Source: an uncultured Prevotellaceae bacterium
GTDB lineage: Bacteria; Bacteroidota; Bacteroidia; Bacteroidales; Muribaculaceae
DNA length: 35,785 bases
Direction: 5' to 3'
NCBI GenBank assembly: GCA_900319525.1
Contig: ONOU01000026.1
Location: forward strand, 1-35,785
Shown here: in pieces, positions 354-35,785 of the stretch
Layout of the letters: the number at the start of each line of letters is the position of its first letter
Position numbering within the stretch: the first letter of the stretch is position 1
Notes under the pieces: model-generated
Databases searched by the model: none
The model's input: the letters and a program-made list of their open reading frames with translations, nothing else
Told to the model about the DNA's origin: nothing
Position numbers and translations under genes: made by a program

Positions 354-471
354 TAAAATTTTATTTTTAAGGACATGCAACTTGTGGCACACTTACACCC
401 CGATCCACCCACATTATGACCTTGATATTTAATTTATTTTAATATAAACATTTAAACTAAACTTGACGTGT

Positions 472-3400
472 ATGAAAAAATTCTCGTTACTGCTTTTGAG
501 TCTGCTGCTGACATGCTCAGCGGCACTCGCGCAGGTCACTGTCACAGGTACTGTTGTACAGGCCAGTGACAACGAACCTGTCATCGGTGCGACAGTCACC
601 GTTGTAGGCACAAAGACGGTTACCGCCACCGACCTCGATGGCCGTTTCACCGTGACCGTGCCCAATTCAAACAGTCAACTGCACATTACCTACATCGGCA
701 TGACGCCCACAACCGTCAAGGCCTCGAATGGCATGGTTGTAGAGCTCTACAGCAACACCCAGGACCTGGACGAGGTTGTGGTAGTTGCCTATGGTACAGC
801 CAAGAAGAGTGAGCTCACCGGTGCCGTGTCACAGGTAACCGCACAGCAGATCGATGCACGCCCCGTGACCAGTGTCACCTCGGCACTCGAGGGCACCACG
901 ACCGGTCTGGTGGTCAACTCGACCTACGGCCAGCCCGGTAGCGGTGCATCGGTCCGCATTCGCGGTTTCACTTCGATCAACGGTGACAACAGCCCCATGT
1001 ATGTCATCGATGGTGTACCCTTCAGCGGCAACATCAGCGACTTGAACAGCGCCGATATCGAGAGCATCACCGTGTTGAAGGATGCTACCTCGTCGGCCCT
1101 GTACGGTAACCGCGCCGGTAACGGTGTCATCATGATCAACACCAAGAAGGGTCGCAACGACAAGGCCCGCATCAACGCATCAATCATGATGGGTACCTAC
1201 AACCGCGGTATTCCCGAGTATGACCGCATGGATGCCCGCCAGTGGATGAACGCCATGATGCAGAGCTACGTGCGTGAGATCCACACTGCCGGCAACTCTG
1301 GCGAGAACACCGACGGCACGCCCAAGGTCATGAGTTGGGCTGATGCGATGGGCAAAGCCAATCAGGAAATCATCGGTTCCTATCTGCACTACAACATTTT
1401 TGACCAGCCCAGCGACAATCTGTTCAATGGCTACAAGCTCAGGGATGATGCTAACATCAAGAGCGAAATCGCCGGTGACCTTGACTGGTTCAAGGCCGCT
1501 ATCCGCAGCGGTTTCCGCCAGGAGTACAACCTCAGCGGCGATGGTGGTTCCAAGACTGCCAACTACTACCTGGGCGTGGGTTACACCAAGGAGGACGGTT
1601 ACACCAAGGAGTCGGGCTTCGAACGCATCAGTGGCCGTGCCCGCGTCAACCTGGAGCCCAAGACCTGGTTCAAGGCAGGTTTGAACCTGTCTGGTTCTCA
1701 CCAGCTCACCCGCTTCCACAGCGATAGCGAGAGCAGCTACAAGAACGCCTTCAGCTACTGCCGCAACATCGCACCCATCTATCCTGTTTATCAGCACGAC
1801 CTGGCGTCACCTAACGGTGCCTACGTACTGGACGAGGAGGGCAACAAGATCTATGACAGCGGTGAAGACAATGGACGTCCCCAGTACTCGGGCCGCCACT
1901 ACCTGTGGGAGATCGAGTTGGATACCGACAAGACCTACCGCAACACCCTCAATGGTCAAGGCAATGTCAGCTTCGTGCTGCCTTATGGCTTTGACATTAC
2001 CCTGAATGCCGACCTGAATGTGCGCAACGCCGAGAACCGCACTTACAACAACGCCATTATCGGTGACGGTATGGGTAACAATGCCCGCACCAAGCGCAGC
2101 ATCACACGCTATAAGAACTTCACCCTCCAGCAACTGTTGAACTGGAACCAGACCTATGCCGACCGTCACGCCTTTGTGGTACTGCTCGGCCACGAGAGCT
2201 ACTACTACAAGTACAACTACCTGTATGGCTACAAGGCCAATCAGTCGCTGAGCGGCCTCATCGACATGGTCAACTTCTCGGATATTCAGAACCTGTATGA
2301 CTACGAGGATAATGACCGCAAGGAGAGCTACCTGGGCCGTTTGCGCTACGTCTATGACAACAAGTACTCTCTTGAGGGCACCTTCCGTCGCGACGGTAGC
2401 TCACGCTTCCACAAGGACCATCGCTGGGGCAACTTCTACAGCATCGGTGCGAGCTGGATCCTGAGCCGTGAAGAGTTCATCCGCAAGTATGACTGGATCA
2501 ACAACCTCAAGTTCCGTATCGCCTATGGTGAGGCTGCTAACGACCTTTCGGCCGGTTATTACAGCTACATGTCCCTGTATGACATCACCGTCAATGGTGG
2601 CATGGGCGCTCTGGTGAAGACCCAGTTGACCAACGAGAACCTGACATGGGAGTCGGTTAGGAACCTGAGTGTTGGTCTTGAAGGCCGTCTGTACAACCGC
2701 CTGAACTTCAGCATCGAATACTTCCTCAAGGGCTCGCATGACCTGATCTTCGGCCTTAACCAGCCACTGTCGGCCGGTGCCACCAGCACCAGCAGCGCCG
2801 TGTCACAGGTACAGGTCAACATCGGTAACATGATGAACCAAGGTTTTGAGCTCTCGGCCGACGCCGACATTGTAAAGACCACCGACTTCCGCTTGAACAT
2901 GGGCTTGAACCTGACTTACCTCAAGAACAAGATCACCAAGATGCCGGACATCTACAATGTGAGCGACGAGAAGGATGAGTACAATGCCGGTATGCAGAGC
3001 GGCCAGTACAACTACCGCAAGGGTCACTCGATGTATGAGTTCTACACCTATACCTATAAGGGCATCGATGATATGACTGGTAGGGCGCTCTACACCTTCA
3101 ACGATCATGACTTCTATGTTCCCGGTATGCTGAAAGACGGCGAGGACATCTCCAAACGTGAGGCTATCCCCACAGGAGAGTATGTTGTCATCGACGGTGT
3201 GCCCTACGTTTACAAGCCTGCCACCTATGGCAAGCGCGAGTGGCACGGGTCGGCAGTACCCAAGTTCTATGGTAGCTTCAATCCCACGATTGACTTCAAG
3301 AACTTCACCTTGAGCGGCATCTTCACCTTCCAGCTGGGCGGCAAGTGTATCGACTGGACCTACCAGAGCCTGACCTCGATGGGCGGCACTCCCAGTGCCA

Positions 3401-3837
3401 TCCATGCCGACATGACCAAGGCCTGGACCAAGGACCTCGATGGCACCGCCGTCACCTACACCGATGATCAGATCAAGGCCATGACCGTGGGTGAAGGCGA
3501 CGACAGCTACGTGAACTATCCCGCCAACCGTCTTGATCCCAAGGGCACGCCCGCTGTTTACTCGGGTGACAACAGCTACAACAGCGCCACCAGCGACCGC
3601 TACATCACCTCGTCTAACTACTTCATTGTTAAGAACATCGGCCTCAGCTACCGCCTGCCGAACTTCATCTTGAACAAGATCGGTTTCACCAACATCTCGC
3701 TCACGGCCACCGTCGAGAACCTGTACACCAAGACCGCCCGCAAGGGTATGAATGCCCAGCAGAACTTCAGCGGTTATGTGGGTGATTACATGGTAACCCC
3801 GCGCGTGTTCTCGTTCGGTGTGAAATTCGGTTTCTAA
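472..3837 (+). CDS. SusC/RagA-family TonB-linked outer-membrane transporter
   Basis: Outer-membrane barrel that, with its SusD partner, imports oligomers (usually glycans, sometimes peptides) using TonB energy. The 1121-residue product starts at ATG 472 with a clear signal peptide ending at about residue 21. An in-frame TTG three codons upstream (463) is less likely. A carboxypeptidase-D-regulatory-like beta-sandwich spans about residues 22-95, a TonB-box-like segment DEVVVVAYG follows near 100, and the plug (GxxxxVRIRG and YVIDGVP motifs) spans about 110-230. The rest is barrel, ending in an aromatic Phe (KFGF). There is no STN domain, so this copy should not signal to an anti-sigma factor. 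susD follows after 34 bp. No glycoside hydrolase, sensor or sigma gene is adjacent, so the substrate cannot be read from context. The family assignment is very secure. Confidence 0.96.
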   Translation: MKKFSLLLLSLLLTCSAALAQVTVTGTVVQASDNEPVIGATVTVVGTKTVTATDLDGRFTVTVPNSNSQLHITYIGMTPTTVKASNGMVVELYSNTQDLDEVVVVAYGTAKKSELTGAVSQVTAQQIDARPVTSVTSALEGTTTGLVVNSTYGQPGSGASVRIRGFTSINGDNSPMYVIDGVPFSGNISDLNSADIESITVLKDATSSALYGNRAGNGVIMINTKKGRNDKARINASIMMGTYNRGIPEYDRMDARQWMNAMMQSYVREIHTAGNSGENTDGTPKVMSWADAMGKANQEIIGSYLHYNIFDQPSDNLFNGYKLRDDANIKSEIAGDLDWFKAAIRSGFRQEYNLSGDGGSKTANYYLGVGYTKEDGYTKESGFERISGRARVNLEPKTWFKAGLNLSGSHQLTRFHSDSESSYKNAFSYCRNIAPIYPVYQHDLASPNGAYVLDEEGNKIYDSGEDNGRPQYSGRHYLWEIELDTDKTYRNTLNGQGNVSFVLPYGFDITLNADLNVRNAENRTYNNAIIGDGMGNNARTKRSITRYKNFTLQQLLNWNQTYADRHAFVVLLGHESYYYKYNYLYGYKANQSLSGLIDMVNFSDIQNLYDYEDNDRKESYLGRLRYVYDNKYSLEGTFRRDGSSRFHKDHRWGNFYSIGASWILSREEFIRKYDWINNLKFRIAYGEAANDLSAGYYSYMSLYDITVNGGMGALVKTQLTNENLTWESVRNLSVGLEGRLYNRLNFSIEYFLKGSHDLIFGLNQPLSAGATSTSSAVSQVQVNIGNMMNQGFELSADADIVKTTDFRLNMGLNLTYLKNKITKMPDIYNVSDEKDEYNAGMQSGQYNYRKGHSMYEFYTYTYKGIDDMTGRALYTFNDHDFYVPGMLKDGEDISKREAIPTGEYVVIDGVPYVYKPATYGKREWHGSAVPKFYGSFNPTIDFKNFTLSGIFTFQLGGKCIDWTYQSLTSMGGTPSAIHADMTKAWTKDLDGTAVTYTDDQIKAMTVGEGDDSYVNYPANRLDPKGTPAVYSGDNSYNSATSDRYITSSNYFIVKNIGLSYRLPNFILNKIGFTNISLTATVENLYTKTARKGMNAQQNFSGYVGDYMVTPRVFSFGVKFGF

Positions 3838-3871
3838 TCAACAATCGTTACATTATTAAATTGAATACATT

Positions 3872-5437
3872 ATGAAAATTTTCAAATATATACTGATTGC
3901 AGGTGTAGTTGCTCTCGGACTGTCATCGTGCTCTAAAGACTATCTGAAGACCGGACCGACCGCCGAGACAGGTACGACGACCGTATTCGAGAACACCGAT
4001 AACGTCAAGCTGGCCGTCAATGGCTGCGCCCGCGTGATGATGAACCAGTACCTGAGCACACAGGGTATGTGCGGCGAGGGTTGTATCAAGATGTGGTACG
4101 GCAACTATCCCGGCCAGGACTTCTACGTGAACCTGCCAGGTTGGGCATCGCTCATCAACCAAAATGTGCACGACACCCCCAACAGCCTGTACACCTACTA
4201 TCCCTGGTTCTACTACTACAAGCTCATCAGCAACGCCAACAGTATCGTCCTGCACGTTGACGAGGCCGAGGGCGTTGAGGCCGACAAGCAGTTCCTCAAG
4301 GCGCAGGGTCTCACCTTCCGTGCCTATGCCTACATGATGCTGGCCCAGATCTACTGCAAGCGCTGGGTGGACAGTGACAACGGCACCTGCCCGGGTCTTG
4401 TGCTCCGTCTGGACGAGAGCGTGGGTGACCTGCCGCTGACTTCACTGGCCGATGCTTATGCCCAGATCTATGCCGACCTCGACGAGGCCATTAACCTCTA
4501 TCAGTCCTCAGGCCGTCACCGTGCTGCCGACGAGTTCTTCCTGCCCGACATCGAGGTAGCTTATGCCACCTATGCCCGTGCAGCCCTCAACCGCTGCGAC
4601 TGGAGCAACGCTTCCAAGTATGCCAAGCTGGCCCGCCAGGGTCACGACCTGATGACCAACAGCCAGTTGCTGAGCGACGGTTTCTGCACCCACAACAGCG
4701 AGTGGATCTGGGGTGGCTACAGCGCTACCGACCAGACGCTGTACTACTACAGCTACCATGCTTACATTGCCTATAACAGCAATGCCGGTAACGTGCGCAA
4801 CTATCCCAAGTGCATCAGCAGGGAATTATTCAATCAGATTCCCGCAAGCGACATCCGTCGTCAGTGGTGGCTCGATCCCACAGGTTACACCTACACCACC
4901 ACGACTGGTGTGGCAGCCAACAGCACCCAACTGGCTAAGGATACCCGTGCCAGTCATCCCGACATCTTGAGCAATGCTACGATTTATGCCTACATGCAGT
5001 TCAAGGTACGTTGCAACGACACCCCCGGTGTGGGTGAGCTGAACAACTTCCGCTCCAGCGAGATGCTGCTTATCGAGGCCGAGGCCGAGTATATGCTGGG
5101 TAACACCAGCGGTGCACAGGCTGCTCTCGTTGCCCTGAACAAGACTTCGGGCCGCGATCCCGAGTACAGCTGCAACAAGACGGGCGCCGACCTGCTCAAC
5201 GAGATCAAGCTCTATCGCCGCATCGAGCTGTGGGGCGAAGGCTTCGATTGGTTTGACCTCAAGCGCTGGAAAGACACCCTCGTCCGTCATACCTATGAGG
5301 ATGGCGGCAACTTCCTGACCACGCTGGCAGTGACCATCACCCCCGAGGAGAAGAACGAGTGGCGTTACATGATCCCCACCCGCGAGACCGACTACAACAA
5401 GGCCGTGCGCGACGGTGTCATCACCCCCGCCGAGTAA
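3872..5437 (+). CDS. SusD/RagB-family surface nutrient-binding lipoprotein
   Basis: The lid-like partner of the SusC channel, which binds substrate at the cell surface. The 521-residue product has a lipoprotein signal peptide with lipobox LSSC, lipidated at Cys20. The residues after it, SKD, resemble the Bacteroidetes surface-export signal of Ser/Lys followed by an acidic residue. TPR-like helices follow, and the C-terminal motif RIELWGEGFDWFDLKRW (near residues 450-466) is the family signature. The gene lies 34 bp downstream of susC and is almost certainly co-transcribed with it. A strong hairpin closes the operon at 5494-5529. Ligand specificity is unknown because no enzyme is encoded nearby. 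Confidence 0.95.
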   Translation: MKIFKYILIAGVVALGLSSCSKDYLKTGPTAETGTTTVFENTDNVKLAVNGCARVMMNQYLSTQGMCGEGCIKMWYGNYPGQDFYVNLPGWASLINQNVHDTPNSLYTYYPWFYYYKLISNANSIVLHVDEAEGVEADKQFLKAQGLTFRAYAYMMLAQIYCKRWVDSDNGTCPGLVLRLDESVGDLPLTSLADAYAQIYADLDEAINLYQSSGRHRAADEFFLPDIEVAYATYARAALNRCDWSNASKYAKLARQGHDLMTNSQLLSDGFCTHNSEWIWGGYSATDQTLYYYSYHAYIAYNSNAGNVRNYPKCISRELFNQIPASDIRRQWWLDPTGYTYTTTTGVAANSTQLAKDTRASHPDILSNATIYAYMQFKVRCNDTPGVGELNNFRSSEMLLIEAEAEYMLGNTSGAQAALVALNKTSGRDPEYSCNKTGADLLNEIKLYRRIELWGEGFDWFDLKRWKDTLVRHTYEDGGNFLTTLAVTITPEEKNEWRYMIPTRETDYNKAVRDGVITPAE

Positions 5438-8351: not shown

Positions 8352-10283
8352 ATGAATAAGTATTATAGATTATTGACTTTAATGGCTCTCGTGCTGACAA
8401 TTATGCCAGCACGAGCAGCCATATACATGGTGGGAAACAACCCTTTTGGCGACTGGAACCCAGGTCAAGGCGTCGAGATGACCGATCAAGGCAATGGCAC
8501 CTACACGTTAACTGTGAGCATCAGCGGCACAGTATGGTTTGTGTTTGCCGACGGCCAGAGCAGTGACTGGAACGTCTTTAACGCCAATTACCGCTATGGC
8601 CCCAATCAGGGTGGCAGCCAGGAAGTCACCGTGGACAACACCTATACGACCCAGAAGAGCAATAACAACCATTCCTACAAGTTTACTGGAGAAGGGAAAG
8701 ACTACACCTTTACATTTGACGAGAGCAATCTCACGTTTTCCATCAGCGAATACCAGGAACCTCCCCTACCCGACCCCTTCAGCCTACAGGTGGGAGACGT
8801 GAATGGGGATGGAGAAATCAACATTGCCGATGTCAACGGCATCATCGACATCCTGTTAGGAGGGTTTGCGAACTATGACAAGCGTCACAGGAGCGACGCA
8901 AACCGTGACGACGAAATCAACATTGCTGATGTCAATGCGGTTATCGACTTGCTGCTGGGCGGCGAACTACCCGAACCCGTCAAGGAGGGCTACGATTACG
9001 TGTGGGATGATGAAGTCCTGCCCGAGGTGCACCTGAACGTGAGCCTCGCCGAGTGGAACAGGTTGCTAGCATTGTATGATGCCAATGCCTTCACGACACA
9101 GTATGTGCAGGCAACACTCTCGTTTGTCAAGGACGGAGAGACCACCGTTATCGACAATGTGGGCCTGCGGCTCAAGGGCAACACATCGCGCCGCCGCCCC
9201 GAGGGGAGTTACGGCCAGATGCACCAGCGCGACAACACCGACTGGCATCATGCCCACTTCGGCGTGAACTTGCGCAAATTTGCCGATGATGATGCCCACA
9301 CCATTCAGGGCGTGCGCAAACTGCATCTCAAGTGGTTCAAGGATGATCCGGCCTATGTGCGCGAGGTTTTCTGTTACGAGCTCTTTCGCCGCGCGGGCGT
9401 ATGGACTGCAGTCCGCGACAACTACTGCCGCCTGTGGCTCCATGTTGAGGGAGACAGCAAGGAGGCGTATTACGGTGTGTACGAGCTGATGGAGCCCATT
9501 GACAAGCACTACCTCAAGGACAGGAAAAACCGTTTCGGTTCCAACAAAGGTTACCTGTGGAAATGCCGCAACAGCGCGGCAGGCCTCAATAACCCCAACG
9601 GCGACATCTGGTATGATGACGACACCGACGACCGCCATGCCTACACATTGGAAACACAGACCGAGGAGTTTGACAGCGCCCGTGTACAGCTTGTTGATTT
9701 CATGAACAAGCTCAACGGCCTCAATGACAACGAATTTTACACCTGGATTCAACAGGTCACCGACGTGGATCTGCTCTTGAAGACATACGCTGTCAACGTG
9801 GCCGTGGGCATGTGGGACGACTACTGGAACAATGCCAACAACTATTACATCTACTTTAACGGCAAGGGATTGACAGGCTATAAGTTCTTCTTTATCCCCT
9901 ACGACTACGATAACACGTTGGGGACCAGCCTGCGTTGCGGCGTGCAGGACGATGCCGGCCGGCAAAATCCGCTCAACTGGGGAAACAATAACAATCGCCT
10001 GATTGCCAGGATTCTCAGGTTCAATGATTTCAAACAGAAATATATCACTTACCTCAAAGGGCTCATTGACGCTCCAAACGCCCTCATGGACCGCGCGTCC
10101 TCACAGGCGCGCATCCGCTCGTGGCAGCAGCGCATCGAGCCCTACGTCAACAATGACACGGGCGAGGATACTGCCATCGAGGACAAGCCAGCCTCATGGG
10201 GCAACCACAGCGAGTATAGGCTGCTGAAGAATGGCAGCGACAACTTCTTTACGGTAAAAGCTGCCAGCATATCGCCGCTTTAA
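8352..10283 (+). CDS. Secreted CotH-kinase family protein with dockerin-like repeats
   Basis: A 643-residue exported protein. Signal peptide 1-22 (cut after ARA). Residues about 23-135 form a beta-sandwich resembling SusE/SusF-type or other carbohydrate-binding modules (inference from pattern). Residues about 147-205 hold two dockerin-type calcium-loop repeats, GDVNGDGEINIADVNGIID and SDANRDDEINIADVNAVID, each followed by a Leu-rich helix with GG. Residues about 215-600 are a CotH domain. The segment near 495-525 (WDDYWNNANNYY, then FIPYDYDNTLG) matches the family's Asp/Asn active-site region. CotH proteins are atypical kinases that phosphorylate spore-coat proteins in Bacillus; the role in Bacteroidetes is unknown. 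The gene ends 12 bp before the convergent dnaX stop. Confidence 0.88.
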   Translation: MNKYYRLLTLMALVLTIMPARAAIYMVGNNPFGDWNPGQGVEMTDQGNGTYTLTVSISGTVWFVFADGQSSDWNVFNANYRYGPNQGGSQEVTVDNTYTTQKSNNNHSYKFTGEGKDYTFTFDESNLTFSISEYQEPPLPDPFSLQVGDVNGDGEINIADVNGIIDILLGGFANYDKRHRSDANRDDEINIADVNAVIDLLLGGELPEPVKEGYDYVWDDEVLPEVHLNVSLAEWNRLLALYDANAFTTQYVQATLSFVKDGETTVIDNVGLRLKGNTSRRRPEGSYGQMHQRDNTDWHHAHFGVNLRKFADDDAHTIQGVRKLHLKWFKDDPAYVREVFCYELFRRAGVWTAVRDNYCRLWLHVEGDSKEAYYGVYELMEPIDKHYLKDRKNRFGSNKGYLWKCRNSAAGLNNPNGDIWYDDDTDDRHAYTLETQTEEFDSARVQLVDFMNKLNGLNDNEFYTWIQQVTDVDLLLKTYAVNVAVGMWDDYWNNANNYYIYFNGKGLTGYKFFFIPYDYDNTLGTSLRCGVQDDAGRQNPLNWGNNNNRLIARILRFNDFKQKYITYLKGLIDAPNALMDRASSQARIRSWQQRIEPYVNNDTGEDTAIEDKPASWGNHSEYRLLKNGSDNFFTVKAASISPL

Positions 10284-27574: not shown

Positions 27575-28765
27575 ATGTTTGGAAAATTCCAGGAACATCT
27601 CCAGAAGGAGCTTGCCGACATCCAGGCTGCCGGTTTGTACAAGAACGAACGTATCATCACCACCCCGCAGCGCGCCGACATCAAGGTGCAGCCCAACGAC
27701 GAGGTGCTGAACTTCTGTGCCAACAACTATCTGGGTCTGAGCGACAACAGCCGCTTGATCAAGGCCGCTACCGAGACCATGTCTCACCACGGCTACGGCA
27801 TGTCGTCGGTACGCTTCATCTGCGGTACCAGCGATATTCACAAGGAACTTGAGGCCGCTATCGCCGACTACTTCCACACCGAGGACGCCATCCTCTACGG
27901 TTCCTGCTTTGACGCCAACGGCGGCCTGTTTGAGGCCCTGTTGACCGACGAGGATGCCATCATCAGCGACTCGTTGAACCACGCTTCGATCATCGACGGC
28001 GTGCGCCTGTGCAAGGCAAAACGCTACCGCTATGCCAACGCCGACATGGGCGAGCTCGAGGAGTGCCTGAAGCAGGCCCAGGAGCAGCGCTTCCGCATCA
28101 TCGCCACCGACGGCGTGTTCTCGATGGACGGCAACGTGGCTCCCATGGACAAGATCTGTGACCTGGCTGAGAAATATGACGCCATGGTGATGGTCGATGA
28201 GTCACACTCGGCAGGTGTCGTTGGCCCGACCGGCCACGGTGTAGCCGAGCAGTACAACATCTATGGCCGCATCGACGTCTTCACCGGCACGCTGGGCAAG
28301 GCCTTTGGCGGTGCTATGGGTGGTTTCACCACTGGCCGCAAGGAGATCATCGACATGCTGCGCCAGCGCTCACGTCCCTACCTGTTCAGCAACAGCATCG
28401 CTCCCGGCATCGTGGGTGCCAGCATCGAGATGTTCAAGATGCTCAAGGAGAGCAACGCTCTGCACGACAAGCTGGTGGACAACGTGAACTACTTCCGCGA
28501 CAAGATGATCGCTGCTGGCTTTGACATCAAGCCGACGCAGAGCGCCATCTGCGCCGTGATGCTCTACGACGCCAAGTTGTCGCAGGACTTCGCTGCCGAG
28601 CTGCAGAAGGAAGGCATCTACGTTACCGGTTTCTACTATCCCGTTGTGCCCAAGGGCCAGGCCCGCATCCGCGTGCAGGTATCGGCCGGTCACGAGCGTG
28701 AGCACCTCGACAAGTGCATCAACGCCTTCATCAAGATCGGCAAGCAGATGGGAATCATCAAGTGA
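27575..28765 (+). CDS. kbl: 2-amino-3-ketobutyrate CoA ligase (glycine C-acetyltransferase)
   Basis: PLP enzyme that splits 2-amino-3-ketobutyrate with CoA into glycine and acetyl-CoA, the second step of threonine breakdown. The 396-residue length equals the usual size. Family features: NNYLGLS (about 47-53), GYGMSSVRFICGT, the aspartate in MVDESHSAG that contacts the pyridine ring, and the PLP lysine Lys242 in GTLGKAFGG. Start at ATG 27575 (MFGKFQEHLQ), where homologues begin; the frame runs 35 codons upstream. Related enzymes (8-amino-7-oxononanoate synthase, serine palmitoyltransferase) share the fold, but the N-terminus and length favour Kbl, and a matching threonine dehydrogenase is encoded at 17170. 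Confidence 0.93.
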   Translation: MFGKFQEHLQKELADIQAAGLYKNERIITTPQRADIKVQPNDEVLNFCANNYLGLSDNSRLIKAATETMSHHGYGMSSVRFICGTSDIHKELEAAIADYFHTEDAILYGSCFDANGGLFEALLTDEDAIISDSLNHASIIDGVRLCKAKRYRYANADMGELEECLKQAQEQRFRIIATDGVFSMDGNVAPMDKICDLAEKYDAMVMVDESHSAGVVGPTGHGVAEQYNIYGRIDVFTGTLGKAFGGAMGGFTTGRKEIIDMLRQRSRPYLFSNSIAPGIVGASIEMFKMLKESNALHDKLVDNVNYFRDKMIAAGFDIKPTQSAICAVMLYDAKLSQDFAAELQKEGIYVTGFYYPVVPKGQARIRVQVSAGHEREHLDKCINAFIKIGKQMGIIK

Positions 28766-28821
28766 GTTAATAGTTAATAGTTAACAGTTAACAGTTAACA
28801 GTTAATAGTTAATAGTTAATA
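28766..28821. repeat. 7-bp tandem repeat GTTAAYA, eight copies
   Basis: Eight consecutive copies of GTTAATA or GTTAACA begin at the first base after the kbl stop codon (28763-28765). The copies run T-T-C-C-C-T-T-T at the sixth position. Such a run is prone to slippage. Confidence 0.9.
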
Positions 28822-28921
28822 GTTGCATCCGCCAACTAATTAAGGACTAAGGACTAGAAACTAGAAACTAAGGACTAGAGACACTAACAATCATTATAAC
28901 ACCCAGAAAAAACCTCATGTT
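28822..28921. other. Simple-repeat spacer before the kbl terminator
   Basis: After a short unique segment comes a run of AACTAA, GGACTAAGGACTAG and AAACTAG words (about 28834-28878), related to the low-complexity DNA at 7752 and 25968. No open frame or promoter is evident. Confidence 0.45.
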
Positions 28922-28959
28922 GACGGTCGCAGGTGCATCCACCCGCGACCGTCTTTTTT
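28922..28959 (+). terminator. Terminator of kbl
   Basis: GACGGTCGC (28922-28930) pairs perfectly with GCGACCGTC (28945-28953), with GGTG/CACC able to pair inside, followed by six T (28954-28959). It is placed 157 bp after the kbl stop, beyond the repeats. Confidence 0.85.
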
Positions 28960-29014
28960 CGACATGCTACAAATACTCCTTAGTATTTCAACAAGTATGC
29001 ATTCTGAAGGCCTG

Positions 29015-29093
29015 TAGAGACGCAAAATCTTGCGTCTCCAATCGTTAGGCTTTACCTAAATCCACCCTTGAGACGCAAGATTTTGCGTCTCTA
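29015..29093. repeat. Paired palindromes TAGAGACGCAA...
   Basis: A 24-bp sequence at 29015-29038 is repeated as its exact reverse complement at 29070-29093, and each arm is itself a hairpin (GAGACGCAA with TTGCGTCTC, 4-nt loop). The gap of 31 bp is unique sequence. A related single copy is at 26127-26155. Confidence 0.85.
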
Positions 29094-29119
29094 CAATGCG
29101 GGTGAATTGAGATTCTCAC

Positions 29120-31675
29120 TTACAGGCGGGATTTCTCGTCGTTGCCGGCGCCAGTGCCCTTGTACTTGCTGCGGGTGACATTGAATTTATAGGTCACGGT
29201 CATGCCGATGGTGCGGTCAAAGTTGTAGCAATCCTTGGTGAAATTGGTGCCTATACCGTAGGTGGTCCATCGTTCCTGGCTGGTCTTGAAGATGTCGTCG
29301 GCATAGAGGTTGACCAGCAGCGCCTTGTTGAAGAAGGATTTGTTGATACGCGCCCCAACCGTCCAATAGTGCTTGACACTCTGGAACTCGTCATCGGCAT
29401 CACTTGCGACACACACACCCAGCACAGCTGTCCAGGAATGAGGAAGGACAAAGGTGTTCCTCAGTTCAAACCGCCACAACGGACTGTGATGGGTCAAACG
29501 AGAGCCATATTGCTCGGCATCAAAGAAGACCTTGTTGAAACTCAGCGTCACCGTGGGCCGATAGACGCCGAAACGAGGTGCAGCCACCAGCGAGGCAAAC
29601 AAGCGCTGAGCATCGCCATAGTTGTGGGTACACAGCAGGGCATAACGCTTGTCCTGCTCCAACACGGGCACCCAGCACATGGTGCTCTGACTGTAAGTGT
29701 AGCGCACCTGCAGGCTCAGCCACGAGTAGATGGCCGACAACTCCAAACGGTGGTTCAGCTGTGGGCGTAACAGTGGATTGCCACCCTCGTAGGTGTAACG
29801 GTTATCGTACTGGATGAAATTGCGCAGCTGGAAATAGCTGGGGCGATTGATGCGGCGGCTATAATTCAGTTGCCAGTTCCACTTGTCCTTCTTCCAGGCA
29901 ACGGAGGCATTGGGAAACCAGTCATTATAGGTGCGGCTGGGTTCCTCCTCACGGATGCCTGACGAATAGTAGTCGGAGTTGATGTGCTCAAAGCGCAGTC
30001 CGGCGCCGAAAGTGAAATTGCCCAGGGTGAAGTCATACTCGGCAAAGCCCGAACTGTTATTCTCGCGGATGCGCGTGTCGGATGACAAATGGGACTGGTC
30101 GTCGTTGGAATAGGTGCCGTCGGTGCGGGTAAAGGTCAACTCAGTGCCGATGCTGGCGGTACCCTTCCACAGGGGGTGACTCAGGATGAGTTTGCCAGCG
30201 GTCATCTGGTTACGCTGGCGACTCTGGGTGAGCACATGGCGGTCATCAAGTTCATCGCTTAATTCAGTGCGTTCATCAGTATTGCGTTCATTGCGACAAT
30301 ACCACGTGCCGTTAAAGTCGATTGACAATTGGCCAACTTTGCCCACATAATACATATTGACATCGTGCAACGGATTTTGTTTGCGATTGACGAGGGCATC
30401 ATACAAGACGCTACCCTCAAGCACACCGTTGTTCCATATCTGTTGCTCACCGATGACGCTGCCATTCTTAATATTGACACCGCTCAAGGTGTAAGAAGCG
30501 CCCAACGAATGGTTGTCGTTGATATCGTAATTGAAGCCTACTTGCTCATAATGCGACTTGCTGCGGTACTTGGTGTCACCCGTCTGATCGACATGCACTG
30601 TGCCATCCTCCAAGAATAAGTCATTATTAATGTCATTGTCCTCACCCATCCATGCGCTACGCCAGTAACCCTCGGCAAACAGTTCCAGGCCGTGGGTGCG
30701 GTATTTCACGTTAATGTCCTGATATCCACCCCACTCGTGGTTGTTGCGCACGTTGGTAATGGTGCTAACACTGAAGCCATCTCCTTGGGGCTTGACCGTG
30801 TAGATGCGGATGACGGACGACACATTCTTTTTGTATCGCGCACCTGGGCTCGTAATCACGTCGATAGACTTGATGTCGCCCGACTTGAGGCGTGACAACT
30901 CGGTATTGCTCTGAATCGGGTGGTTATTGATGTAGATGAGCGGTGTGCCACTGCCAAAGACGCTCACCTGGCCGTCGCCCTTGACATCGACACGCGGCAA
31001 CTGGCCCAGCACGTCAATACCCGTACCCATGTCGCTGAGCACCGTGCCCGCAACATTCACCGTCATGCCACCAGTGGTCATCTGGTACTGGGGGCGTTCG
31101 CCCTTGACGGTGACGCCGTCGAGGGTGTATTGGTCGGGCTGCATTTTGATGGTGCCTAGGTGGGGCGACTTGCAGTGGCGATAGACGGGACGGTAGCCCA
31201 CGTAGGTGATGCGGGCGAGGACGCCGCTTTGGTCACAGGGGATGACGAACAAGCCGCTCTCGTTGGTCACGCCGCCGGTGATCACCGTCGAGTCGCGTAG
31301 TGAGAGCAGGGCCACGTTGGCGTAGGGCAACGGCTGGCCCGTTTCGTCAAGGACGGTGCCCTTGTAGCGCGTTGCTTCACGCAGGGGGCATTCCACGGCG
31401 ATATCCTTGCCCTGAACGGTCATCTTGATGGGATAGAAACCGATCAACTGCTGGATGGCATCGGGCACCGACTTGTTTTTAACCGACGTCGTCACCCTGA
31501 AGTCCTCCAGGTCGTTATACAGGAAACTGATGTTGTATTCCCCACCCCGCTCGTTGAGCCACTTGAGCGCCTCGCTCATCGACACGTCATCAAACGAGCG
31601 CGTCACTCGCTGGCCAAAGACGGGAGAAAACAAAGATAGAACTGATAGAAAGAATAACGTATATAATCGATTCAT
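29120..31675 (-). CDS. STN-domain outer-membrane beta-barrel receptor A
   Basis: An 851-residue outer-membrane protein. Signal peptide 1-21; STN (secretin/TonB N-terminal) signalling domain about 25-92; carboxypeptidase-D-regulatory-like domain about 103-182; a plug-like segment about 185-310 (VTVKGERPQ, then IYINNHPI and IDVITSPGARY); then a barrel of the OMP_b-brl_3 type, with the clade's positively charged tail KYKGTGAGNDEKSRL and not a terminal Phe. STN domains in such receptors contact FecR-like anti-sigma factors when ligand binds. Residues 20-185 are nearly identical to those of receptor B, while the rest is clearly different. No promoter was found for it; the TA operon lies between it and receptor B. 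Confidence 0.9.
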   Translation of the reverse strand: MNRLYTLFFLSVLSLFSPVFGQRVTRSFDDVSMSEALKWLNERGGEYNISFLYNDLEDFRVTTSVKNKSVPDAIQQLIGFYPIKMTVQGKDIAVECPLREATRYKGTVLDETGQPLPYANVALLSLRDSTVITGGVTNESGLFVIPCDQSGVLARITYVGYRPVYRHCKSPHLGTIKMQPDQYTLDGVTVKGERPQYQMTTGGMTVNVAGTVLSDMGTGIDVLGQLPRVDVKGDGQVSVFGSGTPLIYINNHPIQSNTELSRLKSGDIKSIDVITSPGARYKKNVSSVIRIYTVKPQGDGFSVSTITNVRNNHEWGGYQDINVKYRTHGLELFAEGYWRSAWMGEDNDINNDLFLEDGTVHVDQTGDTKYRSKSHYEQVGFNYDINDNHSLGASYTLSGVNIKNGSVIGEQQIWNNGVLEGSVLYDALVNRKQNPLHDVNMYYVGKVGQLSIDFNGTWYCRNERNTDERTELSDELDDRHVLTQSRQRNQMTAGKLILSHPLWKGTASIGTELTFTRTDGTYSNDDQSHLSSDTRIRENNSSGFAEYDFTLGNFTFGAGLRFEHINSDYYSSGIREEEPSRTYNDWFPNASVAWKKDKWNWQLNYSRRINRPSYFQLRNFIQYDNRYTYEGGNPLLRPQLNHRLELSAIYSWLSLQVRYTYSQSTMCWVPVLEQDKRYALLCTHNYGDAQRLFASLVAAPRFGVYRPTVTLSFNKVFFDAEQYGSRLTHHSPLWRFELRNTFVLPHSWTAVLGVCVASDADDEFQSVKHYWTVGARINKSFFNKALLVNLYADDIFKTSQERWTTYGIGTNFTKDCYNFDRTIGMTVTYKFNVTRSKYKGTGAGNDEKSRL

Positions 31676-31696
31676 GCTTTTTTATCTGAGTTTTTA

Positions 31697-31727
31697 TTTG
31701 ACAATAGAAAATTTTCATGTATCTTTG
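31697..31727 (+). promoter_or_regulatory. Promoter of the toxin-antitoxin operon (consensus)
   Basis: TTTG (31697-31700), 19 bp, TATCTTTG (31720-31727): a perfect match to the Bacteroidetes -33/-7 consensus and spacing. The start would be near 31734, about 20 nt before ATG 31754. It is the strongest promoter in the window by eye. Confidence 0.75.
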
Positions 31728-31753
31728 TATTCATAATCAAAGCCATTCCAATT

Positions 31754-32002
31754 ATGACACCAATACAATTAAACGCAGAATTATATCGAGCTATGGGCGT
31801 GATAGCTGAAGACGAAGCACTGCTTAAACGTGCTGTAAGGTATCTGAAAAAACTAGCAGCCCAAAAGCAAGAAGAAGATTCACAGATGACAAAAGAGGAG
31901 TTTTTTGCCCGTGTGGATGAAGCCAAGCAAGAAATAGCTGATGGCAAGGGCCGCTCATTTACCAATATTGAAGAGTTGGACCGACACATCCGTAGCCTAT
32001 GA
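31754..32002 (+). CDS. Antitoxin of the YoeB-type module
   Basis: An 82-residue, highly charged helical protein. It starts at ATG 31754 and its stop overlaps the toxin start by 4 bp (ATGA), the usual antitoxin-first arrangement with translational coupling. The sequence is not a recognisable YefM/Phd antitoxin. The N-terminal part (residues 1-35) is a compact helical region that could bind DNA or dimerise, and the C-terminal TKEEFFARVDEAKQEI is a likely toxin-neutralising helix. The call rests on position and composition, and on recall of similar small proteins next to RelE-superfamily toxins in Bacteroides. Confidence 0.75.
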   Translation: MTPIQLNAELYRAMGVIAEDEALLKRAVRYLKKLAAQKQEEDSQMTKEEFFARVDEAKQEIADGKGRSFTNIEELDRHIRSL

Positions 32003-32274
32003 AATACAATGTAATCATTGCTCCCAAAGCTGAAGAAGACCTGAAACGCCTGCTTACTAATGAGCCAAAGGCTTATCAGAAAGCCATCACCCTCATTGGT
32101 GAACTTTATGAGCATCCCCGAACGGGAACAGGTAAACCCGAGCCACTTGCTGGTGACCGTTCGGGCCAATGGAGCCGTCGAATCAGCAAGAGGCACCGAT
32201 TGGTCTACGAAATTCAAGATACTGAAGTCATTGTGCTTGTTCTCACCGCCTACGGGCATTATGGTGACAAATAG
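31999..32274 (+). CDS. YoeB/Txe-family mRNA-cleaving toxin
   Basis: A 91-residue RelE-superfamily ribonuclease that would cut mRNA at the ribosome. Residues equivalent to the YoeB active site are present: Glu48 in GKPEPL, Arg67 in KRHRLVY, and the C-terminal His87-Tyr88 in AYGHYGDK. The GDRSGQWSRRIS stretch is the family signature. The open frame appears intact. It is coupled to the antitoxin by a 4-bp overlap, and the pair lies on the opposite strand to both neighbouring receptor genes. Confidence 0.9.
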   Translation: MKYNVIIAPKAEEDLKRLLTNEPKAYQKAITLIGELYEHPRTGTGKPEPLAGDRSGQWSRRISKRHRLVYEIQDTEVIVLVLTAYGHYGDK

Positions 32275-32296
32275 CGTTTGAGCAACACCCTTATTC

Positions 32297-32326
32297 CACC
32301 CTCTCGCTGTCGCTGGTGAGAGGGTG
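32297..32326. terminator. Hairpin between the toxin gene and receptor B
   Basis: CACCCTCTC (32297-32305) and GAGAGGGTG (32318-32326) form a 9-bp stem with a 12-nt loop. No T tract follows on either strand, so it would be an atypical terminator, possibly serving the two convergent transcription units (toxin +, receptor B -). Confidence 0.45.
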
Positions 32327-32372
32327 AATTGCATTGGGTGATATGTTGAAGCTATTACCTGCATAACATTGA

Positions 32373-34916
32373 TTACAGGCGGTTACGCTCGCTCTGTCCG
32401 GCATGGCTGCCTTTGTAGCGGCTCTTGGTGGCATTGAACTTCCAAGAGAGGTCGATGCCGATGCGGCGCTTATCTTGATACTCATGGTAGTGGGTGCGGA
32501 AGTTGATACCCCCATAAGCGACTTGCTCTTTTGATTGCGTGTGCAGGATATCCTTGGCAACCAAAGCGATACTCAGACTCTTATCCTTCAGGAATTGTTT
32601 GCCAATGCGCAGATTAAGGCTTCCACTGGCTTCTGTCTGACTGGGACCAGACTCACAGTAAGGCGTGATCATCCCATTCACATTCAGAAGCCAATCGTGT
32701 GGCAACATCAACGTGTTATCAAGCGAGAAACTGGAAACTAACCCGTTCCACTTGTGGGTCATCCCCAACCGATAAACATCTTCATTACAAAAATAGAGAT
32801 CTGCTGAATAGTTCATCTGCCAGATGCCCACCTTAGGCGAGAAGTTCAGAGTGATACCATAGTATTCCATCTTTGTATTGCGATAGTCCATGATGACAAC
32901 GCCTGGATGGTTCACGTCGTCATAGGCGGTCTGGAACGAACGTATATTATTCTTGATGTCTTCATAAAAGACCTCGGCATAAATCCATTTCCAAGAAGAG
33001 CTCCAAGTGAAACTATGTTTTGTCATGGGCTTCAAATAGGGATTGCCTGTATCATACTCATACTTGCTGCGGTAATTGACCGCGGTGGAGAAGAATCCGT
33101 AATTCGGATTAAAACGAGTACAATTGTAAGCCAACCTATGCTGCCAGTAGTCAGTAATATAGGAAATAGAGAGGCGGGGTATCAGAAAGGAATAATCAGG
33201 ACTCATCTCTGCATTGTGCTGCTCGTTACTTTCATACTGGTTATACTCGTTCTGCCAGCGCAGGCCGGCATTGATTGAGAATTTGCCCAATTTTAAGGCG
33301 TAGTTAGCAAAAAGCGACCAGATATAGGTCTGCTGGCGAACATGGCCATCGGCCGAGAAGCCACTCTGAATGAAGTCATGAGTGCGATGGACCGAGGAGG
33401 CTTCTTCGCCAAAGGTCAATTCGCCTTTGGGCACAGGGGCCGTGATGACCAGTTTCTCGGCCAAAAGTCGATTATTGGAGTTGGTTTGACTACTGACTGT
33501 GGTCGAGCCTTCGGTGCCGCCTTCCATCTCTTTAAGAGACGCTGACTGATAGAAATCTGCACTGAAGTCGATGTTCCACTTGCCGACATTGCCAGCGTAG
33601 TAGGCATTCAGCGTGTGACTCATGCGAGGTTTATCGACTGTATTTGTCCTGCTGTGGCCTCCATCAACGAGAATGCCGTCACGCCAAGTCTGCTCGTCCA
33701 TCTCACGACGGGTCAGACTGTTACCGATGTAATTGAAGGCTGTGTAGGTCACGCCCACCGAGTGGCGGTCGTTGATTTCCCAGTTCCAGCCAAGGTCGGC
33801 AAAGTAGTACTTGACCTTGAAAAGCCACGAGGCTTCTTTCTGGTAATCCCATGTGGAGGATGCCTGCAATTGGTCCTGGGACGTAGCATTAATGACCAAG
33901 TTGTTATCGGTCAGAAACCCTCGAGCGAAAAAGTCCATGCCGCCAGGAGTGCGATAGTTCAGGGCTGCATTTAGACTGGCATAGTATTCTTTCCCTTGGC
34001 GGTAGGCTGCCGAGAAATTGCCGCTCCAGCCCTCGCCCGCCTTGCGCACGGTCTTCAAGCGGATGACCGAAGTCACATCGGCACTGTATTCTGGGCCGGG
34101 ATTGGTGATGATCTCTGCCGAGAGGATTTCGTCAGCGCGATAGCGGTCGAGTTCTGCCTTGTTACGCACTTTCTTATTATTGATGTAGATTTCGGGCGTG
34201 CCGTGGCCAGCAATCTTGCCGTCACTCATCATTAAGGGTAGGTGAGTCAGCATCTCGGTGACCGAGCCGAATTGTTCCAATACGGTGCCCTGCACATTAG
34301 CCAGCAGGCCACGATCGGTGGGACGGACAAGTCGTTTGGAGCCCTTGACGGTGACACTGCCAAGGGTGTATTGGTCGGGTTGCATTTTGATGGTGCCCAG
34401 GTGGGGCGACTTGCAGTGGCGATAGACGGGGCGGTAGCCCACGTAGGTGATGCGGGCCAGCACGCCGCTTTGGTCACAGGGGATGACGAACAGGCCGCTC
34501 TCGTTGGTCACTCCACCGGTGATAACCGTCGAGTCGAGCGGTGAGAGCAGCGCAACGTTGGCGTAGGGCAACGGCTGGCCCGTTTCGTCAAGGACGGTGC
34601 CCTTGTAGCGCGTCGCTTCCCGCAAGGGGCATTCCACAGCGATGTCCTTGCCCTGCACGGTCATCTTAATGGGATAGAAACCGATCAACTGCTGGATGGC
34701 ATCAGGCACTGACTTGTTCTTGACCGACGTCGTTACCCTGAAGTCCTCCAGGTCGTTATACAGGAAACTGATGTTGTATTCCCCACCCCGCTCATTGAGC
34801 CACTTGAGCGCCTCGCTCATCGACACGTCATTGAACGTCCGCGTTACCCGCTGCCCGAAGGCAGCCGTGGCCATGGACAAGCATGCCACGAGATAAATCA
34901 TGCGCCTAGTCATCAT
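32373..34916 (-). CDS. STN-domain outer-membrane beta-barrel receptor B
   Basis: An 847-residue paralogue of receptor A with the same plan: signal peptide 1-21, STN domain about 25-92, carboxypeptidase-D-regulatory-like domain about 103-182, plug-like region (VTVKGSKRL, IYINNKKV, EIITNPGPEY) and an OMP_b-brl_3 barrel ending RYKGSHAGQSERNRL. Its ATG overlaps the stop of the anti-sigma gene by 4 bp, so it is translated with the sigma/anti-sigma pair and is the obvious surface sensor or autoregulated target of that pair. Ligand unknown; without a SusD partner it resembles siderophore- or peptide-type receptors more than a glycan importer (inference). Confidence 0.9.
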   Translation of the reverse strand: MMTRRMIYLVACLSMATAAFGQRVTRTFNDVSMSEALKWLNERGGEYNISFLYNDLEDFRVTTSVKNKSVPDAIQQLIGFYPIKMTVQGKDIAVECPLREATRYKGTVLDETGQPLPYANVALLSPLDSTVITGGVTNESGLFVIPCDQSGVLARITYVGYRPVYRHCKSPHLGTIKMQPDQYTLGSVTVKGSKRLVRPTDRGLLANVQGTVLEQFGSVTEMLTHLPLMMSDGKIAGHGTPEIYINNKKVRNKAELDRYRADEILSAEIITNPGPEYSADVTSVIRLKTVRKAGEGWSGNFSAAYRQGKEYYASLNAALNYRTPGGMDFFARGFLTDNNLVINATSQDQLQASSTWDYQKEASWLFKVKYYFADLGWNWEINDRHSVGVTYTAFNYIGNSLTRREMDEQTWRDGILVDGGHSRTNTVDKPRMSHTLNAYYAGNVGKWNIDFSADFYQSASLKEMEGGTEGSTTVSSQTNSNNRLLAEKLVITAPVPKGELTFGEEASSVHRTHDFIQSGFSADGHVRQQTYIWSLFANYALKLGKFSINAGLRWQNEYNQYESNEQHNAEMSPDYSFLIPRLSISYITDYWQHRLAYNCTRFNPNYGFFSTAVNYRSKYEYDTGNPYLKPMTKHSFTWSSSWKWIYAEVFYEDIKNNIRSFQTAYDDVNHPGVVIMDYRNTKMEYYGITLNFSPKVGIWQMNYSADLYFCNEDVYRLGMTHKWNGLVSSFSLDNTLMLPHDWLLNVNGMITPYCESGPSQTEASGSLNLRIGKQFLKDKSLSIALVAKDILHTQSKEQVAYGGINFRTHYHEYQDKRRIGIDLSWKFNATKSRYKGSHAGQSERNRL

Positions 34917-35470
34917 TCCACCACGATTGTATTGCCCTCGATGCTGACTGACACGCGCTCGAACATGTTCAGGCGCTCCACGACGCTCGACAACTCTTCG
35001 CCCGGATGCAACTCGAAGTAGAAGCGCAAGTCACGAGCCTCCTCGTTGCGGAACTCGACTTGCTTACCATAACGGGAAGCGATACCTTCCAGCATCTGGC
35101 CGAGCGGCAGGTTGTCAAATACCACAGGTTCCTCCACGACTGCTATTGTATCGGCTACTGCAACACGTGAGGCCGATTCGGCCGATTCCTCCGAGGCATA
35201 GGTGAAGGCCGAGAGCATGATCACGCCCGCAATCATGGCGGCAACCTTGAGCCAGCGGCGGTTTTTCAATGGGGCGTTAAGGTGCTCCTGCTCGAAACGT
35301 AGCCACTCGGCATCCACATCGGGCACGGGGATATCGGTCATCGCCCGCTTGGCGGTGGCCAGGTGCTCCTGCATTTCATCCTTGAGCATAGCGGCCAGCT
35401 GCTCGTCGGTGTAATTCTCGGGGTGCTCGTGCATGTCGAGCAAGAGACGGATTTTATCGTTCTGTTCCAT
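34913..35470 (-). CDS. FecR-like anti-sigma factor (DUF4974 type)
   Basis: A 185-residue inner-membrane protein. The N-terminal cytoplasmic part (about 1-82; IRLLLDMHEHPENYTDEQL and a helix) would bind the ECF sigma factor, a single membrane helix follows (WLKVAAMIAGVIMLSAFTYA, about 85-105), then a spacer and a periplasmic domain (about 122-185) of the DUF4974 type, which has an STN-like fold. The central FecR domain of classical FecR proteins is absent, so this is a short form. Start at ATG 35470; the open frame continues upstream into the sigma gene. It begins 5 bp after the sigma stop and ends in a 4-bp overlap with receptor B. Confidence 0.85.
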   Translation of the reverse strand: MEQNDKIRLLLDMHEHPENYTDEQLAAMLKDEMQEHLATAKRAMTDIPVPDVDAEWLRFEQEHLNAPLKNRRWLKVAAMIAGVIMLSAFTYASEESAESASRVAVADTIAVVEEPVVFDNLPLGQMLEGIASRYGKQVEFRNEEARDLRFYFELHPGEELSSVVERLNMFERVSVSIEGNTIVVE

Positions 35471-35475
35471 AACGT

Positions 35476-35785
35476 CTATCGTTTTGAGTTGTTGAAGTAA
35501 GCGTTGATTTTCTCCAATGACTGTGACAAGTGATGATGAACTGTCACGCGGCTCACGCCCACGGCATTGGCGACCTGCTGGCAAGTCATGTCGTGCAAGA
35601 AGCGCAGGGTGAAGATGCGGCGCGATAGTGGTGGCAGGTTGTTGTCGATGTATTCCCGCAACTCGGCAAGCGTAAGAGAATCGTCGGGGCCATCGGCAAG
35701 CGGCTCGGCCCTATTTGAATAGAGTTTCATAAAGCGTTCACGCATCTGCTTGTGCCGGATCACATTGATGCAACTGTTGCGCACA
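35476..35785 (-). CDS. ECF sigma factor, C-terminal part (partial at window edge)
   Basis: The last 102 codons of an RNA polymerase extracytoplasmic-function sigma factor; the gene runs off the right edge. Visible are the end of region 2 or the linker (RNSCINVIRHKQM) and a complete region 4 with the helix-turn-helix TCQQVANAVGVSRVTVHHHLSQSLEKI that recognises the -35 element. The apparent start near 35784 is only the window boundary. Followed by the anti-sigma gene after 5 bp, as expected of a sigma/anti-sigma pair. Target promoters cannot be read here but probably include its own operon. Confidence 0.9.
   Translation of the reverse strand, partial: VRNSCINVIRHKQMRERFMKLYSNRAEPLADGPDDSLTLAELREYIDNNLPPLSRRIFTLRFLHDMTCQQVANAVGVSRVTVHHHLSQSLEKINAYFNNSKR

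Follow-up and report, generated by a model that had tools for sequence, protein, structure and literature searches.

One STN-like signalling domain on exchangeable receptor barrels beside a single sigma/anti-sigma pair in uncultured Muribaculaceae

Two surface receptors encoded side by side on contig ONOU01000026.1 of an uncultured Prevotellaceae bacterium (Muribaculaceae in GTDB) combine a nearly identical N-terminal block with clearly different barrels, and this locus raises the question of what keeps one part of the protein the same when the other differs. The window, i.e., the whole stretch of DNA that was analysed, is the entire contig (C38; 35,785 bases), one of the 54 contigs of this genome. 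On its minus strand, the gene order is the 3' part of an extracytoplasmic function (ECF) sigma factor gene (35476..35784), of which the C-terminal ~103 codons precede the contig end, a FecR-type anti-sigma factor (34913..35470), receptor B (32373..34916; 847 amino acids) and receptor A (29120..31675; 851 amino acids). In the established scheme, signalling passes through contact between the receptor's STN domain and the STN-like end of the anti-sigma factor, and ligand binding leads to the release of the sigma factor (excerpts of PMC9249621 and PMC11637429). We consider it highly probable that, at this locus, two receptors address a single ECF sigma/FecR-type anti-sigma pair through a shared STN, and that the barrels are cassettes exchanged by homologous recombination.

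Residues 20-185 of the two receptors (31121-31618 in A and 34362-34859 in B) differ at 4 of 166 amino acids, exactly at residues 27, 29, 126, and 127 as reported by the first-pass annotation, which had also described a sharp drop of similarity at both edges of this block. This drop is clearly seen when nucleotide identity between A and B is calculated by residues of A: it is 0.37 for residues 1-19, 0.92 for 20-100, 0.94 for 101-185, 0.54 for 186-300, 0.42-0.46 for 301-829, and 0.64 for the last 22 codons. Identity is thus uneven along the two genes, and this profile rules out their uniform paralogy. The changes in the DNA of the block had been described as only scattered, which holds for their number (36 of 498 nucleotides) but understates the silent divergence, given that 35 codons are changed, 31 of them silently, and that 22 of 81 fourfold sites differ (0.27; 0.33 in the STN part), for a protein that is 2.4% different. 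Between genomes, the median fourfold divergence, taken over the genes passing set identity and coverage limits, is 0.206 for barrel A (20 genomes), 0.229 for the first-position block (30 genomes), 0.263 for the sigma factor (29 genomes), 0.338 for the anti-sigma factor (30 genomes), and 0.212 (23 genomes) for an aminotransferase gene downstream of receptor A, which we take to be kbl-like.

A plain recent duplication or gene conversion, in which the N-terminal block was copied between the receptors and is identical without functional need, would account for the block being the sole near-identical part of A and B. Nonetheless, an unconstrained copy would give few silent changes and a proportional amino acid change, and the counts speak against both. 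The fourfold divergence of the two blocks is at the between-species level, which makes a recent conversion of the whole block unlikely, and this candidate was set aside for the A/B pair because 22 of 81 is too high. Given that the blocks are silently as old as those of different species, their near-identical protein is best explained by selection, to which the 31 silent changes among 35 also point. Some support for copying comes from the ten genomes that have two such blocks, where, in a test that ignores the kinship of the genomes, the amino acid distance is 0.052 for own pairs versus 0.080 for re-paired ones (1 in 10,000 re-pairings as low) and the fourfold distance 0.183 versus 0.235 (3 in 10,000 as low). 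The set comprised 41 block sequences more than 85% identical to that of A, a limit that excluded the receptors with barrel C in G019 and G070. Own pairs being closer indicates some within-genome copying or local exchange. Of the two causes proposed initially, gene conversion or selection, the one acting on the protein is favoured and recent whole-block conversion in the A/B pair is unlikely; purifying selection with slow within-locus homogenisation fits the sequences better. The match of block types to anti-sigma types across 56 loci, described below, is also unfavourable to a recent copy, which as the full explanation seems very unlikely.

The block comprises two domains. Residues 20-100 correspond to a predicted STN-like signalling domain (31376..31618 in A, 34617..34859 in B, minus strand) and residues 101-185 to a CarboxypepD_reg-like domain (31121..31375 in A, 34362..34616 in B, minus strand), for which PF13620 scores 32.7 bits in A and 31.2 bits, slightly below the cut-off of 32.3, in B. 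The block of A is preceded by a signal peptide and followed by its exchangeable part, as delimited by comparison with relatives, which consists of the TonB-box region, the plug and an OMP_b-brl_3 barrel of family A (29120..31120); receptor B carries a barrel of family B. The predicted model of receptor A has a mean predicted local distance difference test score (pLDDT) of 76, with an STN-like arrangement of helices and strands at residues 23-95, seven strands at 103-177, and a low-confidence linker at 181-195, with VTVKG in what is presumably the place of the TonB box, before the plug and barrel. PF14905 is above the cut-off in both receptors and PF00593 in A, and Foldseek matched receptor A to TonB-dependent transporters including Cir, FecA, FoxA, and FpvA, identifying a TonB-dependent plug and transmembrane beta barrel. 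The alignment spans full-length FpvA and FoxA with their signalling domains, the query being the whole chain rather than the STN alone. A sequence search of solved structures with receptor A gave no match at E 0.01. Aligning 27 receptors gave 51 invariant columns, 47 of them within residues 22-176.

The regulators were identified in the same manner. The anti-sigma factor reaches 41 bits with PF16344 (cut-off 24.4), and its model contains a confident domain at residues 116-184 with an STN-like order of helices and strands, i.e., a predicted STN-like C-terminal domain (~34919-35122, minus strand). Foldseek matched it to anti-sigma factor 4m0n; a Parabacteroides anti-sigma factor is the sole match at E <= 0.001, and the lower matches include the signalling domains of PupA and FecA as well as PupR. 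The part of the sigma factor that is present, which covers region 4, is above the cut-off for PF04545 and PF08281 and scores 46.4 bits with TIGR02937 (cut-off 42.9).

The distribution of the block was surveyed by searching 101 genomes of the genus, taking every place with at least 68% identity and a selection of those at ~60%. This resulted in 80 stretches, including the window, with 104 block matches, fragments included, after matches below 70 bits were dropped; in pairwise base comparisons, pairs with fewer than 400 compared bases were dropped. A block match of some kind occurs in 98 of the 101 genomes, and the block type of A and B, at high identity, in 32. The related contigs are mostly titled uncultured Muribaculaceae, Prevotellaceae or Bacteroidales, with several ruminant sources.

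First-position receptors of this system (slot s1; n = 32) have a common signal peptide whatever their barrel, and 31 of them sit 57-60 nucleotides after an anti-sigma match, the remaining one being at a contig end. Receptor B, whose start codon overlaps the anti-sigma stop, has this s1 peptide (34860..34916, minus strand), and receptor A that of slot s2. There are 16 further receptors of this system (seven in s2, six in s3, and three in s4), all with the STN of this system. Their signal peptides differ from that of s1, each type being common to several genomes and the s2 and s3 types occurring also across barrels, and barrel A itself is found in s1 (G035 and G120), s3 (G002), and s4 (G007 and G110). 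The signal peptide and the upstream sequence go with the position of the gene and not with the barrel. A second sigma/anti-sigma pair beside receptors of the A type would speak for separate regulation, and none of the 16 receptors in s2-s4 has an adjacent anti-sigma factor, versus 31 of 32 in s1. In 18 of 27 relatives, the kbl-like gene or a piece of it shares a contig with a receptor of this system, which suggests a single chromosomal site whose content varies. G070, for which 4% contamination is listed, has two first-position copies on contigs C68 and C72 (L116 and L117), with barrel D in one copy and barrel C in the other.

The part of the receptor that follows the anti-sigma factor was determined with 56 first-position receptors that have an intact anti-sigma factor of at least 150 residues and an open frame of at least 566 codons. 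The Mantel correlation with the anti-sigma distance is 0.83 for the block and 0.38 for the barrel. Along the receptor, residues 20-59 follow the anti-sigma distance with a partial correlation of 0.82-0.89 given the barrel, and the second domain follows it less, with 0.43-0.57 in windows of 20 residues. The switch occurs at residues 180-199, and from residue 200 on only the barrel is followed (0.90-0.91, with -0.05 to -0.11 for the anti-sigma factor). Trees of the 69 receptors of at least 560 codons in four named systems, with G124_C99_807 relabelled by locus, show the same division: the STN tree requires 3 changes of the system label, which is the minimum, the CarboxypepD tree 11 and the barrel tree 14, versus shuffled means of ~31, and the barrel family changes 31 times on the STN tree versus 9, again the minimum, on the barrel tree.

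Tandem neighbours, defined as receptors on one contig and one strand within 8 kb, have an STN identity of 0.90-0.99 in 14 of 16 pairs, while that of the second domain ranges from 0.46 to 0.99. In 6 of the 16 pairs, the second domain is only 46-60% identical and the STN 82-96%. The idea that the whole block is kept identical has to be narrowed accordingly, given that it is mainly the STN that is held constant. For the seven pairs of the u system, the distance in own-locus versus re-paired combinations is 0.108 versus 0.180 for the STN (24 in 10,000) and 0.366 versus 0.384 (30%), i.e., no closer, for the second domain.

Average-linkage clustering of the 88 receptors with at least 276 codons gave 10 plug/barrel families (single linkage at 50% merges a second family into A), and 6 of them are shared by at least two of the four systems. 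The survey of relatives, a check proposed by the first-pass annotation, found this block type on other barrels: the 28 first-position genes of this system that were classified carry six of the ten families. Conversely, closely similar barrels stand on different blocks. For barrel B, this system and system t are 79-89% identical after the block, 60-62% in the block, and ~56% in the STN; barrel G is 93% identical on blocks that are 61% identical, and barrel C 90-91% on blocks of 72-73%. A second cluster in the genome of the window, on contig C40, combines other STN types with barrels C, G, and E. The reverse combination is seen for L181 versus L183 (genus not established), with an identity of 0.94 in the anti-sigma factor, 0.96 in the STN, and 0.24 in the barrel. 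In the 21 pairs, not independent because they share members, in which the barrel is at least 80% and the anti-sigma factor at most 50% identical, all 21 have an STN identity within 0.50-0.64, and that of the second domain is 0.58-0.95, as if crossovers had occurred near residue 100 in some and near residue 185 in others. The plug and barrel of receptor A are 91-98% identical to those of all 23 other family-A receptors in s1-s4, a comparison from which three rows at ~30% (another family) and two system-u rows at 75% were left out.

Several observations weigh against a shared STN with exchanged barrels. The Pfam STN model has no match in A or B, and the Plug model gives 18.2 bits in A (cut-off 23.9) and no match in B. 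The model of receptor A has a moderate pLDDT of 64-78 in the STN, its whole-chain Foldseek TM-scores are a modest 0.41-0.49 when normalised by query length, and the anti-sigma model has a predicted template modelling score of 0.38 and 1 match at E <= 0.001. The correlation of the barrel with the anti-sigma factor is above zero, two tandem pairs have a lower STN identity (0.70 in G066 and 0.82 in G006), and the system labels on the trees rest on signal peptides, which physically adjoin the STN. A sigma-driven promoter before receptor A was looked for and not found; the region 5' of its start, compared by eye with relatives, has no defensible conserved element. Finally, 76 of 77 titled loci are marked as metagenome-assembled genomes or uncultured, and several contigs terminate within the block or close to it. 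These last two facts are what would be expected if short-read assemblers working on metagenomes had joined wrong barrels onto shared blocks. However, the longest identical run between the blocks of A and B is 59 nucleotides, which argues against a simple assembly duplication, identical combinations recur in assemblies of different projects, and the kbl-like gene is found again on the receptor contigs. An assembly artefact is hardly credible as the origin of the pattern.

It may also be that there is no convergence, with only receptor B signalling and receptor A being a silent spare or a passenger, its STN retained only as homology for recombination in the manner of an expression site and a storage copy. 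The place of position 1 directly after the anti-sigma factor in 31 of 32 cases agrees with this, as do the antisense gene pairs that lie before most downstream slots and the decayed look of some of these slots, namely a scar in G093 (signal peptide, a few block codons, and the 3' end of a barrel) and broken frames in G073 (s3 and s4), G100 (s3), and G098 (s2). Nonetheless, first positions are broken as well (G017 and G032), so that decay is not peculiar to the downstream slots. Receptor A is intact. Within family A, its plug and barrel are conserved as given above, and its STN is conserved at the protein level, which a mere recombination substrate does not need. We regard a passenger role for receptor A as quite improbable.

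With a shared STN as the preferred reading, the STN-like domains (residues 20-100) of A and of B would both dock onto the one anti-sigma factor present, through its STN-like C-terminal domain, so that two ligands would converge on one sigma factor, and the need to fit the local anti-sigma factor may keep the STN nearly identical. By analogy with the established scheme, ligand binding to A or B would release the sigma factor. The initial claim that one anti-sigma factor hears two ligands agrees with the STN tracking the anti-sigma factor and with downstream receptors having none of their own; the convergent signalling it implies is suggested by this comparison. Homologous recombination in the conserved N-terminal part, with crossovers near residues 100 and 185 and a second crossover site perhaps in the conserved last ~20 codons, would carry plug and barrel cassettes from one position of the locus to another and from one sigma/anti-sigma system to another.

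The best reading of these sequences appears to be natural domain swapping within classical cell-surface signalling. As in FecA/FecR/FecI, FpvA, FoxA/FoxR, and PupB/PupR, there is a predicted STN-like N-terminus, a plug, a barrel, an STN-like anti-sigma end, and an adjacent ECF sigma factor. Unlike in those transducers, there are several receptors with one shared STN per anti-sigma factor, an extra CarboxypepD_reg-like domain lies between STN and TonB box, the periplasmic part of the anti-sigma factor is, from its sequence, short, and barrels are exchanged between systems. The nearest precedent is provided by the PupBA/PupAB chimeras, where the N-terminal domain sets the regulator and the barrel the ligand; in engineered PupBA, the target was determined by the N-terminus of PupB and the ligand by the barrel of PupA (Koster 1994, as summarised in part of the review PMC9249621). 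Those receptors were made in the laboratory, according to the same excerpt, whereas the pattern here is natural and repeated across the genus. It is thus a natural, replicated counterpart of the chimera experiment, with the same barrel on different heads or the reverse. The exchange pairs allow the STN residues that choose the anti-sigma factor to be read off, and provide a test of one regulator reading several receptors. They suggest a route by which a gut bacterium may change its imports without rewiring its regulation, and point to uncharacterised barrels of the same exchange pool. Although signalling of this kind is already known, swapping that is natural and recurrent, in a layout of several receptors per regulator, makes it a variant for which a full-text literature search, covering titles and abstract openings with subscription journals mostly outside it, gave no description of natural exchange of barrels on a fixed STN.

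SusC-type transporters of Bacteroides ECF/anti-sigma loci also have an STN together with an N-terminal extension of CarboxypepD type, and ECF/anti-sigma control; there the extension is stated to precede the STN, which here comes first (excerpt of PMC7782687). Unlike for those transporters, no SusD gene lies beside the receptors, and the SusC model TIGR04056 is far under its cut-off of 368.25, with 42.6 bits in A and no match in B, so that these are not SusC/SusD importers. A constant part joined to alternative parts of surface proteins is also the arrangement in the SusC/SusD and S-layer shufflons of Bacteroides. In contrast to these, the block copies at this locus are direct repeats, the sole inverted repeat of at least 20 nucleotides in 28800-35785 is a 26-nucleotide hairpin, and no recombinase is among the 15 window proteins scanned, other open reading frames (ORFs) of the window being outside that scan.

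Between the two receptors of the window lies an antisense gene pair, consisting of a putative antitoxin (31754..32002, plus strand), an 82-amino-acid ORF with no Pfam family above cut-off, and a Txe/YoeB-family toxin (31999..32274, plus strand) with 77.4 bits for TIGR02116 (cut-off 51.8) and 66.1 bits for PF06769 (cut-off 27). The TIGR02116 score and the small gene overlapping the toxin start by 4 nucleotides identify a type II toxin-antitoxin module YoeB. A 230-amino-acid ORF at 31672-32364 on the minus strand, without Pfam match, was rejected as an antisense shadow of this pair. Each extra-receptor position has its own type of antisense pair just upstream, with PIN and DUF6169 assigned from one example each: YoeB in s2 (complete in G000, G019, G079, and G095, truncated in G032 where the contig starts, and missing from G098 and G114), a PIN-domain ORF in s3 (6 of 6, shortened in G035 and G120), and a DUF6169 ORF in s4 (3 of 3).

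Five further genomes of the genus encode a toxin protein 100% identical to that of the window. The 101 genomes contain nine copies with at least 95% identity to it, besides an 18-residue piece at the G032 contig end; two of the nine have an inner stop. Seven lie beside receptors of this locus (G000, G019, G026, G033, G079, G093, and G095), and those of G035 and G100, located on other contigs, adjoin the kbl-like gene. The pair has no receptor after it in G033 and G026, which makes the link between toxin-antitoxin and extra receptor a loose one, and an obligate link is ruled out by these two genomes together with G098 and G114, where s2 lacks the pair. Given that the pairs lie between direct repeats able to recombine, a guarding role may be possible. 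A tentative extension, which we consider rather unlikely, would be that these are receptor cassette arrays, with head, signal peptide, and regulator fixed at one chromosomal position, a genus-wide pool of barrels, and addiction modules between the direct-repeat heads that penalise their deletion by recombination. In this reading, the output of two receptors with one STN could be set by the ratio of empty to loaded receptors and not by a simple logical OR, given that in the Fox system a signalling domain without ligand is reported to protect its anti-sigma factor (excerpt of PMC11637429).

The aminotransferase gene (27578..28765, plus strand; PF00155) bounds the locus in many relatives, and with the anti-sigma factor and the YoeB pair it completes the neighbours of the receptors. 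Directly downstream of receptor A, there is a perfect 26-nucleotide inverted repeat with a 31-nucleotide loop (29013-29095), and an Rfam scan of 28700-35785 gave no match reaching gathering scores. Six relatives (L041, L042, L048, L053, L054, and L066) have a strongly conserved leader immediately before the sigma start and, seen by eye farther upstream, a TAnnTTTG-like element, which we take to be a Bacteroidetes promoter element. At the opposite end of the contig lies a SusC-like (CarbopepD_reg_2 and Plug)/SusD-like gene pair (463-5437), and the window also encodes a CotH-kinase protein with a dockerin-like stretch (8352-10283).

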